NCBI RefSeq assembly: GCF_014280035.1 | Contig: NZ_CP047957.1 | Coordinates: 1,736,001-1,800,000 of the forward strand | Direction: 5' to 3' | Source: Synechococcus sp. A18-25c | GTDB taxonomy: Bacteria > Cyanobacteriota > Cyanobacteriia > PCC-6307 > Cyanobiaceae | Length of the DNA stretch: 64,000 nucleotides | Part shown: piece after piece, positions 5,441-60,990 of the stretch | Position numbering within the stretch: position 1 is the first letter of the stretch | Layout of the letters: the number at the start of each line of letters is the position of its first letter | Program-made: the position numbers and the translations under genes | The notes under the pieces: model-generated | The model's input: the letters and a program-made list of their open reading frames with translations, nothing else | Databases searched by the model: none | What the model was told of the DNA's origin: nothing

Positions 5441-6769
5441 CTAAATGGTTCCGGGCTGCCGTAGGAACGGCAGATCCCAGAGTCGATCGATGCGCAGGGT
5501 GCGGAAGCCACCGGTGAGCGAGCGCAGACCGGGAATGATGTAAGTAACCGGTGAACGCCACTCCACATAGGCGAAGGTGTCGATGGTGAGTCCGTCCCGG
5601 ATCGGGAAGACCCCACTGCCATTGGAGAGGGTCCAGCGGTAACCGTCATCGCTGCGTGCATCGCGATCCAGTTCAATCTCAGCGCGCATCACCGGACCGT
5701 TTTTGACGAGGGCCTCAGCCAACTGGCTGTTACCGACGGTGGTGGCGATATCCTCCCGGGTCGCCGGAAGGCTGAGCACGCTGCTAACCGTCCCCTCAAT
5801 CCCACCAAACCGTCCCCGTTGATTCCACAACGGCACCACCTCCACAGGCAACCCGATCGGCAAGCGGCGAGCATCGGCGGGTGGGAAGTAGGCAACAGCC
5901 ATCAGATCACCACCGGTTTTGCGCTGATCAGTATCGGGGCTGGCACTGCGACCGATAGTGCCGAGGCGGTCACCGGTCTTGACGGTTTGGCCCTGGATAA
6001 CCTGCAAATCCAGCACAGCACCACTGCGCTCAGCGGTGACGTTGCCATCGAAGGCGATGCGGGCCTCAGTCACGGCGATTTCTCGCTTGAGATCATCGAT
6101 CTGGAAGCGTCGATCTAGGCGTTCGGTCTCAATCTCCAGCTTGATCTGCTGAAAGGCTGTGATCTCATCCTTTCGCTGGATTTTGATGTCATCCAGCTGA
6201 ACGCTGGTGGTGGTCAGCCCCTGTTCAGCAGACACCACAGCTCTGGAGAGCGGTGCAACCACTTCGCGTTGGGCCAACCAGCTGAGGTTCTCAACTTTGG
6301 TGTTGTAGATCGACTGCAGGTTGGTCAGCCGCTTCTGATCGTCATCCAGCTTGGCGAGCGCCGTGTCAAGAGCCGCCTGGGCTGTCCGAATCCGCAGCGC
6401 GTCGCGCGCATCCAGTTCCTCGTTCTGGCGCTCCAACTGACGCAGGTTGCCGTTCTGTTGATCCAGCTGTCGTTCCAGAACAGGGAGATACAGGGTCATC
6501 AGCACCTGCCCCTTGCTGACGCGATCGCCCACCTTGGTGTTGATCCGCTGCACCTGCCCGCCCGAACGGGCATTGAGAATCCCGGCATTGTCTGGATAGA
6601 TCAGAACACCGCGGCCCTCCACCTGCGTGGGAACGGGCCAGAACAGCAGCCAGAACCCGAACAGGCCGCCAACACCCGCCAACGCAACACCAACCTGGTG
6701 GTGATCCGAGAGCCCATTCCATCGGCTCTTGAGTCGCGCAACACGGGAGGAGGTGGTCATGGCAGCCAT
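5441..6769 (-). CDS. HlyD-family membrane-fusion (adaptor) protein
   Basis: 442 residues. A short basic cytosolic N-terminus is followed by one membrane segment (about residues 28-48), a biotinyl-lipoyl strand region (GILNARSGGQVQRI, VGDRVSKGQVLM), a very long coiled-coil hairpin (about 110-240, many Gln/Arg/Leu), a second lipoyl half (AERSGAVLDLQVIQGQTV) and a beta-barrel C-terminal part. This order is that of adaptor proteins for type I secretion or FUSC/RND pumps. The overall build also recalls the HlyD-like subunit of NHLM-type bacteriocin exporters, but no peptidase-ABC transporter is in the window, so the nearby FUSC pair and TolC protein are the more likely partners. ATG at 6769; a second ATG lies three codons in. 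Confidence 0.8.
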   Translation of the reverse strand: MAAMTTSSRVARLKSRWNGLSDHHQVGVALAGVGGLFGFWLLFWPVPTQVEGRGVLIYPDNAGILNARSGGQVQRINTKVGDRVSKGQVLMTLYLPVLERQLDQQNGNLRQLERQNEELDARDALRIRTAQAALDTALAKLDDDQKRLTNLQSIYNTKVENLSWLAQREVVAPLSRAVVSAEQGLTTTSVQLDDIKIQRKDEITAFQQIKLEIETERLDRRFQIDDLKREIAVTEARIAFDGNVTAERSGAVLDLQVIQGQTVKTGDRLGTIGRSASPDTDQRKTGGDLMAVAYFPPADARRLPIGLPVEVVPLWNQRGRFGGIEGTVSSVLSLPATREDIATTVGNSQLAEALVKNGPVMRAEIELDRDARSDDGYRWTLSNGSGVFPIRDGLTIDTFAYVEWRSPVTYIIPGLRSLTGGFRTLRIDRLWDLPFLRQPGTI

Positions 6770-6832
6770 CTTGGAGGGGATGGACAGCCGTTGCCGTTCA
6801 GCGGAGGACAGTTCCGATCAACGGTTCGCGAT

Positions 6833-7387
6833 TTAGATCAGCAGCGTGAACGAATGAATCACCGATTCGAACAGACCCTTCACCTTGGGCCAGCGCTCTT
6901 CATTGGTGCTCGTCGCCAGCGTGTAAAGGCGACCTCGATCCACCACCACCGTGGCCAGTTCGTGGCGATCACGGTCTTGCAGGTGAACGGCAAATTCGAG
7001 GTCGTAGAAGATATGCCCCTCGGAATCCCGCTCACTGGCCTCGATCAGATCAGCATCGCGCCCGCTGCCATCTGGTGCGATCACCTCACGCCGAAGCCGC
7101 TCACCGACCGCCACGGCACTCCCGAGACTCTCCAGGTCATCGTCGGCATCGACATCCGAAACGACCAGGCTGACCGTTTCATCACTGTTGATCAGATCGT
7201 GGAACACCACCGCAGGGCCTCCGGTGACCGCCACCCGCGTCCAGCCGGTCGGATACAGGAAGGCATAACGGCCATCAGGACTCTTGAACGAGTTCAGACC
7301 GGCAGCGGCACCACCACAGGCACTGAGCGTGATGACGCAAAGCAGAACAAGCAGGGACCGGAGCGGACGTCGCAGCATGGAGCGCAT
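6833..7387 (-). CDS. psbP: photosystem II lipoprotein PsbP (CyanoP)
   Basis: 184 residues from the ATG at 7387; another ATG three codons later and one 13 codons upstream are possible. The chosen start gives a normal lipoprotein signal: basic RRPLR, hydrophobic LLVLLCVIT, lipobox LSAC, so the mature protein should be lipid-anchored on the lumenal side. The body has the PsbP hallmarks FKSPDGRYAFLYPTGW near the N-terminus, VVFHDLI, DLEFAV and a C-terminal LYTLATSTNEERW. CyanoP assists photosystem II assembly. It is divergent from recR, 74 bp away. The HlyD-type gene lies 63 bp downstream on the same strand. Confidence 0.9.
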   Translation of the reverse strand: MRSMLRRPLRSLLVLLCVITLSACGGAAAGLNSFKSPDGRYAFLYPTGWTRVAVTGGPAVVFHDLINSDETVSLVVSDVDADDDLESLGSAVAVGERLRREVIAPDGSGRDADLIEASERDSEGHIFYDLEFAVHLQDRDRHELATVVVDRGRLYTLATSTNEERWPKVKGLFESVIHSFTLLI

Positions 7388-7461
7388 GAAGAGAAGGGCC
7401 GGATGCCGGCATTCTGCCCGTCCCATCCCCTGCCTAGATTTTCTCCACCTGCCAAAGAGCT

Positions 7462-58380: not shown

Positions 58381-58680
58381 TCAAGGCGCCAATCGGCGCA
58401 CACTCTCCACCTTGTCGCGAAACGACTGGACGCGATCGATCCGGGTGTTCACCCGCAACGAAGCATGCAAACGCTGCACCCCCTCAGCGTGAAGCCGCAC
58501 ATGGCAGGCCTTCACGCAGGCGAAAACGGCATCCCAATCACCCTCAATCGCGGTTCCATCAGGCCCCAATTGATGCTCGAGCCCCGAGGACTCAATCACC
58601 TCATGACACATCGCCACATAGGGAGCCAGAGAAACACCAACCCCAAGCGGCACCAGGCAGAGATCAACACTCACTTTCAT
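58381..58680 (-). CDS. MTH1187-family thiamine-binding-like protein (UPF0045/DUF77)
   Basis: 99 residues. The pattern VSVDLCLVPLGVGVSLAPYV, CHEVIESSGLEHQLGPDGTAIEGDW, VKACHVRLHAEGVQRLHASLRVNTRID is that of the ferredoxin-like UPF0045 family, whose members bind thiamine or related pyrimidines as tetramers. ATG start, no signal peptide. It lies 68 bp upstream of the metallopeptidase gene, same strand. Confidence 0.8.
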   Translation of the reverse strand: MKVSVDLCLVPLGVGVSLAPYVAMCHEVIESSGLEHQLGPDGTAIEGDWDAVFACVKACHVRLHAEGVQRLHASLRVNTRIDRVQSFRDKVESVRRLAP

Positions 58681-59581: not shown

Positions 59582-59845
59582 ATGACACCAGCCACAGAGA
59601 GCTGGCTAGGCATTGATCAGGACAAGATGACATCCGTGATGAGAACGCAACGCCTTGAGCGCTACGTCCTTCGCCATGAGGGCACAGGTGACTATTTGCG
59701 CGTTAACGAGGAGAGTCAAGAAATCGAACGCAGCACCAGTCCTGAAATGGCGTGGGAATTCCACACCCATGACGGTGCTGTCACCCATGCCATCTGGATC
59801 GGCCAAGTGTTCGGTCAGACGCCCGACGTGGTGAGGATGGCTTAA
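59582..59845 (+). CDS. small protein of unknown function
   Basis: 87 residues from the ATG at 59582, 5 bp after the previous gene; internal ATGs at 59627 and 59639 are possible starts. The core reads RLERYVLRHEGTGDYLRVNE, ERSTSPEMAWEFHTHDGAV, AIWIGQVFGQTPDVV: several strands, few helices. Not recognised. Confidence 0.6.
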   Translation: MTPATESWLGIDQDKMTSVMRTQRLERYVLRHEGTGDYLRVNEESQEIERSTSPEMAWEFHTHDGAVTHAIWIGQVFGQTPDVVRMA

Positions 59846-59875
59846 AGATTTGGTGAGCGAGGCCCACCAAGTTGA

Positions 59876-60157
59876 TCAGAGCTCGTCTTCCACCTCGGCC
59901 TTGATGGTGCAATCCGATAGCGGATAGCTCACACATAGCAGGGCAAATCCGTTGCCCATCTGTTCATCATCAAGAAAGCTCTGGTCGGTCTGATCAACGC
60001 TTCCAGAGATCACTTTTCCAGCACAGGTGCTGCAAGCTCCTGCGCGACAGGAATAAGGAAGATCAATTCCTTGCTCTTCTGCTGCGTCCAGAATGTATTG
60101 GTCATCTGCACAGGAGAAATCTTTGCCGCCCTCAAGGGTGATGGTGAAAGTAGCCAT
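59876..60157 (-). CDS. plant-type [2Fe-2S] ferredoxin
   Basis: 93 residues from the ATG at 60157. Cluster ligands are visible in CRAGACSTC and the downstream LLCVSYP Cys; the N-terminal [11 protein letters not shown] and [15 protein letters not shown] match PetF-like ferredoxins. It carries electrons from photosystem I or between reductases. Marine picocyanobacteria hold several paralogues, so I do not assign petF. A Nif11-like gene lies upstream (104 bp), same strand. Confidence 0.93.
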
Positions 60158-60261
60158 GAACCTGAAAACACCAAACCGTTCGTAGGTGGTGTGACGCCAT
60201 CCAGACACACCGGTCAGGAAACTCAGACGCAAATCACGGGCGATGGTCTCAAGGGTGAACT

Positions 60262-60537
60262 TCAGCCCTGGATGAAATGGCGCAGGCGTCTGGACTCATC
60301 AGCCATGCGTCGCTGCAACTCGGTAGACGACACCGTCGACTCTTCTCGCTGCTGCGCCAGGAAAACATCCTCTTCCGTAATCACCAGATCACGTTCACGT
60401 CCGAGCGCGATCAGGGTCTCCAACGACAAGGGCTCCGACAAACGTTGCGCCAGTTCAGGCTCATCCTTTCGACGTTGCAGCAGGGCATCGAGATCCTGAA
60501 GAGACAAGGGCAGCAGCCTCACGTGCACAGAACTCAT
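60262..60537 (-). CDS. small Nif11-like domain protein
   Basis: 91 residues. The core [21 protein letters not shown], then [20 protein letters not shown] and TEEDVF follows the Nif11 pattern (helix, DPEL, short turn, A-x-G-F/L-like turn, TEEDL). The tail is Glu/Arg-rich and has no Gly-Gly cleavage site and no cysteine core, so it is not a lanthipeptide precursor. It lies 104 bp upstream of a ferredoxin gene in the same direction. The Nif11 call is mine by eye. Confidence 0.6.
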
Positions 60538-60990
60538 TTCATCAGACCATTGCTAGACATCGCAAAAGTGCTGCTACGCCCAATGGCATTGGACCGTCTG
60601 AGCACCGCTGCACGGAGCCTTGGAACCAGCCTGATCAGGCTCGACCTCGGTCGGTCCGCCATGCAGGCCGCCTGCCGTGTTCTGCCACCCGTTGGCGGTG
60701 ACGGCAACAGTGACCCTCTCAACAAACGGGTGGGAAACGCCAAGAACATCGGCCACACCCAATTGAACACCGATTTCGCAGTAGACGGTCCTTCCACGAG
60801 CTCCAAGCCAGTCTTCACCGCCGATTCATTCGCCAGCAGCGGGGCCAAGATATTGAGGCCTCCTACCATCACTCAAGGCAGACAGATCAATCAGGTGAAG
60901 TTCAAGAACGGTGCTGGCAGCGATCCCAGTTCCACAGGATTCAGCTGCCAAAGATCCGTTCAAACTTGAAACTGAGCCGCCGAACCTCCC
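60538..60990. other. 453-bp stretch without a convincing gene
   Basis: Two frames are open here: a rightward one running across the Nif11-like gene to 60969, and a leftward one of 113 codons ending at 60534 whose stop overlaps the Nif11-like start as ATGA. Neither has a recognisable domain, and a third leftward frame gives a fluent but stop-broken reading (GVADVLGVSHPFVERVTVAV around 60650-60760). Could be a decayed gene or regulatory RNA region; I cannot choose. Confidence 0.4.

Follow-up and report, generated by a model that had tools for sequence, protein, structure and literature searches.

The Nif11 family is familiar chiefly as the N-terminal part of precursors of antibiotic-like peptides, and Gly-Ala sites can be cut by C39 peptidase. 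For N11P precursors, the leader motif ELSDEELEAVAGG is given in the passages of PMC2887384 concerned with them. Conserved non-prochlorosin Nif11 groups have also been reported, with their function stated as unknown in the relevant part of PMC10783134, and a "Nif11 domain-like protein" transcript was higher with iron added in Synechococcus in an excerpt of PMC9723758 that leaves the particular Nif11 gene unspecified. The protein studied here is encoded in the window, i.e. the whole 64,000-nucleotide stretch of Synechococcus sp. A18-25c that was analyzed, and is not described in the titles, abstract openings and selected passages covered by literature searches on Nif11 with ferredoxin, Nif11 with DUF427, and the Nif11 domain. 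Literature matches for DUF427 proved to be DUF4278, an unrelated prefix match, and were discarded. With a probability of about 0.6, we read the protein as a single-copy, non-precursor member of the family that would serve as an uncut intracellular helical adaptor acting through its tail.

The 91-aa minus-strand open reading frame originally called at 60262–60537 is real, and its codon 11 aligns with the start of its orthologues, which is ATG in most of them; in several relatives the same frame is closed by a stop a few codons before this common start. Because the orthologues begin at codon 11, where the window reads TTG, this TTG is most likely the start of an 81-aa gene, and the codons ahead of it are probably untranslated, judging from the alignment (Table 1). 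A promoter and terminator scan of 59800–60700 found none, and few would be expected by chance as well. Upstream of nif11, a 112-aa minus-strand frame at 60534–60872 was dropped, the conserved open frame there lying on the plus strand. That strand holds a short gene (60583–60969) between nif11 and a 120-aa ORF, conserved in relatives (e.g. L032–L040) and without a Pfam match; the window copy is missing 84 bp in frame (483 vs 567 bp between flanking starts) and has an altered end. Its product looks secreted by eye, and the gene may be decaying.

Table 1. Features of the nif11 locus, in window coordinates
Feature	Position	Strand	Evidence and remarks
Ferredoxin [2Fe-2S] gene	59876-60157	-	PF00111 E=8.8e-24; TIGR02008 E=5.6e-41; not a constant partner
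nif11 gene (most likely extent), from the start common to orthologues	60262..60507	-	TTG 60507-60505; 81 codons + stop; start alignment; PF07862 36.9 bits
Ten codons upstream of the TTG, within the originally called ATG start	60508..60537	-	Not conserved; in-frame stops in relatives
Nif11 domain, residues 1-47	60367..60507	-	Pfam match 1-47
M-A-D, residues 68-70, counterpart of the A-G-G leader cleavage motif	60298..60306	-	By eye, orthologue alignment vs PMC2887384 motif
Tail RRLRHFIQG, residues 73-81, nearly invariant	60265..60291	-	Orthologue alignment, dN/dS, tail counts

By its profile match, the gene encodes a Nif11-domain protein. The prediction of a Nif11-like product held up in a PF07862 search, where the 91-aa form scored 31.3 bits (E = 2.5e-7) and the 81-aa form 36.9 bits (E = 4.5e-9), both above the curated cut-off of 23.8. 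Since PF07862 is matched by 39/39 aligned orthologues (E ≤ 0.01) and the median dN/dS is low, the frame is not a chance one. The RiPP precursor model of the family, TIGR03798, is narrowly missed: its cut-off is 32.3 bits, and the 81-aa form scores 31.1, the 91-aa form 27.3. The same genome holds 49 Nif11 places above cut-off, of which the window copy is the lowest (31.7 bits); a rough look at 48 stretches shows the others to be mostly ProcA-like, with a SEEQLKAFLE-type start, Gly-Gly and Cys. Further Nif11 ORFs unlike ProcA-type precursors occur at own-genome loci L139, L141–L143, L145 and L146, the one at L139 followed by what is, by eye, a cupin-like domain.

A whole-protein search recovered nif11 in 39 of 99 genomes, comprising 31/31 of the genus, 8/30 of the rest of the family and 0/38 of other families. 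A profile built from these 39 orthologues matched 156/300 family genomes once each (E ≤ 1e-10), including one match apiece in the 31 genus genomes; both the 31/31 and the 156/300 counts derive from the whole protein rather than the tail. The profile matched 0/211 genomes of other families, and class-wide it matched 16/242, all 16 within the family. Carriers include Synechococcus WH7803, Cyanobium and Aphanothece strains and Prochlorococcus sp. MIT 0701, among others, and tblastn against a phage collection found no phage copies. Among 22 family genomes lacking nif11, 20 are ≤1.9 Mb, the exceptions being G038 (2.2 Mb) and G060 (2.9 Mb). The small, Prochlorococcus-like genomes without the gene had prompted the idea of a phycobilisome link. 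Prochlorococcus is not known to have phycobilisomes, and the link was dropped on finding the gene in Prochlorococcus sp. MIT 0701.

The gene is under purifying selection, which is strongest in the tail. Over the 37 full-length sequences (2/39 having been excluded for length), the whole protein has a median dN/dS of 0.082 (104 usable pairs), compared with 0.12 for the Nif11 domain (104 pairs) and 0.037 for residues 64–81 (91 pairs). The tail consensus, R-R-L-R-[HN]-F-I-x-G, sits where precursors have a variable core and ranks in the top two 9-residue stretches for conservation: in the 39-sequence alignment R76 and F78 are among the invariant columns, and R73, R74, L75, I79 and G81 are ≥90% conserved. 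A larger set of 95 sequences, in which some genomes were counted twice, reduces to 79 distinct ones, whose commonest tails are RRLRHFIPG (33), RRLRHFIQG (24) and RRLRNFIHG (7); these counts were partly fetched through the tail, and the unbiased figures are those of the 39-sequence alignment and dN/dS. The bias concerns 56 loci (L075–L130) retrieved with a DNA pattern taken from the tail itself.

What is observed is that the protein belongs to the family, has no Gly-Gly, occurs once per genome, is selected most strongly in its tail, and is independent of ferredoxin and LanM. In the preferred reading, the Nif11 domain would be retained as a small helical module, and the stretch that holds Gly-Gly and a variable core in RiPP precursors would have become a C-terminal helix bearing the conserved tail. 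The protein would stay whole inside the cell as a protein-binding adaptor, its tail docking into a partner, and its cellular job is probably an ordinary one. The structural model (mean pLDDT 79.4, pTM 0.55) has predicted helices at residues 3–15, 17–24, 29–38 and 45–79, the last crossing the former cleavage place, with the tail modelled at low confidence (pLDDT 59, residues 71–80). Foldseek returned no match at E ≤ 0.001 (best E 6.2), and the best VIA-align Z was 2.8 among 20 chains.

As to what the tail might bind, the best candidate is the DUF427 protein, an operon-like neighbour in Cyanobium-type relatives, although we would still bet against it. Among 56 named loci, a codirectional DUF427 gene (PF04248) lies directly downstream of nif11 in 28; another 22 have a window-like context with an ABC permease or an 87-residue ORF (5 of them with ferredoxin), and 6 have neither layout. 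In 24 of 31 loci that hold an SRAP gene (PF02586), this gene lies upstream of nif11 at a distance of ≤116 bp. The compact SRAP–nif11–DUF427 row, frequent in Cyanobium-type relatives, is seen in 21/56. One locus, L121, has DUF427 and the ABC permease together and so bridges the two layouts. Clustering of ORFs around the named loci merged antisense ORFs and served for leads only. The row can lose nif11, because in G060 (L154, ∼6356–7461) SRAP and DUF427, which in relatives flank nif11, overlap each other, and no nif11 match was found in that genome at E ≤ 0.01. DUF427 occurs in 38/39 nif11-positive vs 3/22 nif11-negative family genomes, a correlation confounded with genome reduction (20/22 negatives ≤1.9 Mb), and is present without nif11 in 35/38 genomes of other families; co-occurrence is thus a lead, not a test. 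Counted against the adaptor reading are the confounded DUF427 correlation, the absence of DUF427 as a neighbour in the window's own clade, the low confidence of the modelled tail, the Gly-Ala found in 11/79 sequences as a possible C39 cutting site, G060, and the dN/dS of 0.20 between the window and L032. Also within the window's conserved neighbourhood is a member of the thiamine-binding protein family (58381–58680, minus strand; PF01910, E = 4.6e-29).

It is possible, and we put it forward tentatively, that the protein is a leader turned resident: an ancestor would have lost Gly-Gly and core, fixed a new tail and taken on a permanent adaptor role, which may be within a DUF427/SRAP unit. If so, the Nif11 domain would gain a function of its own. 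The reverse direction, with the standing protein first and leaders later, is conceivable as well. Cyanobium-type members read LSDEELQ.RAG[E/A/D]EARRLRHFIPG, in agreement with the leader motif up to its final Gly. The former cleavage place itself varies between members (AG, MA, QA, AA, VA) and the tail does not: Ala-Gly is present in 34 of the 79 distinct relatives, Ala-Gly-Ala in 11 and Gly-Gly in none.

It is unlikely that the protein is still a RiPP-type precursor whose tail is cut off and used unmodified or with unusual modification. Such a role would suit the good TIGR03798 scores of relatives, higher than that of the window protein (best E 4.6e-20), the LSDEEL..AG kept in Cyanobium-type members, the 11 sequences with Gly-Ala and the four C39 peptidase places in the window's genome. 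Against it stand the missing Gly-Gly, a site that varies beside a tail that is constant, the single copy, and the distance of ∼73 kb to the nearest C39 place. The tail also lacks the Cys, Ser and Thr in which precursor cores are rich (none in the window tail, one in a few relatives). The original prediction had proposed a protein with no cleavage site, no Cys-rich core and a non-precursor role, and all three proposals were supported: the window protein has neither Gly-Gly nor Cys and ends in a nearly invariant tail, and nif11 gives a single match in each genus genome, while ProcA-type leaders range from no match to at least 150 copies in one genome and the LanM dehydratase domain (PF13575) is found in 12/31. 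The leader query, a single 47-residue sequence that divergent leaders can escape, had no match (E ≤ 1e-8) in 13/31 genus genomes; all 13 keep nif11 and fall among the 19 without a PF13575 match. The nearest LanM place in the window's genome is ∼67 kb away. Given the conserved tail, the lack of Gly-Gly, purifying selection and presence without ProcA-type leader or LanM matches, the non-precursor interpretation is well supported.

The prediction had further tied the protein to the adjoining [2Fe-2S] ferredoxin, whose gene indeed follows nif11 on its strand after 104 bp, and a role as ferredoxin-binding partner now seems quite improbable. The two are codirectional neighbours in 19/31 genus genomes, with the ferredoxin between nif11 and the conserved 87-residue ORF (18/30 loci plus G027, locus L069). 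In 11/31 the interval from nif11 to the following conserved gene does not contain it, and in one the contig ends there (L057). These 12 genomes, 5 of which are represented by assemblies ≤80% complete, have no match of ≥80% identity to the window ferredoxin; their best matches anywhere (73–76%) are, by that identity, another ferredoxin paralogue. In G035 an 84% match lies on a different contig from nif11. The ferredoxin was accordingly rejected as a constant partner. Nor is nif11 constraint visibly relaxed without it: clades lacking ferredoxin have a median dN/dS of 0.071 (27 pairs) and 0.104 (3 pairs, with saturation), groups with ferredoxin one of 0.055, 0.086, 0.053 and 0.204. This last value comes from one pair, the window copy and L032, which is the closest and lies above the other groups. 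Outside the genus, nif11 has other neighbours. Other plant-type ferredoxins, present in 60/60 genomes searched, could be bound instead. The analogy drawn with nitrogenase clusters rests on the family name; no nif gene is found among the named neighbours of nif11.

About as improbable, if not slightly more so, is regulation of RiPP enzymes by leader mimicry, e.g. by occupying LanM or a C39 transporter: a leader domain kept after loss of the core would fit, but nif11 is present in 19/19 genus genomes without a LanM-domain match (C39 was surveyed in the window's genome). That nif11 is a decaying leader without function, as its lost Gly-Gly and core might suggest, is hardly credible given purifying selection, tail constraint and one copy in each of the 31 genus genomes.

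All members of the group (39/39) belong to PF07862, and the window copy matches it over residues 1–47, its conserved tail falling outside the 48-position model. A solved structure, PDB 9zn4 (a Nif11 domain-containing protein of 77 residues), gives a profile match over positions 1–66 (E = 0.00095), a likeness known from the sequence match alone, in an alignment that stops before the tail. In marine Synechococcus, Nif11 peptides of group F likewise begin in the Nif11 manner and have a conserved C-terminus, but their tail is -GEYH/N- in the part of PMC10783134 that presents them. A second Nif11 protein of the window's genome without Gly-Gly (G000:C1:1679189-1679401, minus strand), ending in PGEYN, probably belongs to that group; it has matches in 29/31 genus genomes (E ≤ 1e-8), and in 22 of these, the window's genome included, the match spans the full length with ≥68% identity. 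Unk10 of marine Synechococcus likewise carries a Nif11 domain at its N-terminus, lies apart from RiPP clusters and has an unknown function, but is 107–118 aa long and located in pigment gene islands, according to the passages of PMC3877281 that treat it. A constrained, single-copy Nif11 member in an easily sampled group offers a handle on the domain's own action, and genome miners should be warned that relatives match TIGR03798 and may be miscounted as peptide precursors. With the N11P and prochlorosin precursors that this model describes, the protein shares the Nif11 domain and, in Cyanobium-type members, a remnant of ELSDEELEAVAGG; it differs from them in lacking Gly-Gly and a variable Cys-rich core, in its single copy and nearly invariant tail, and in occurring without a LanM match.
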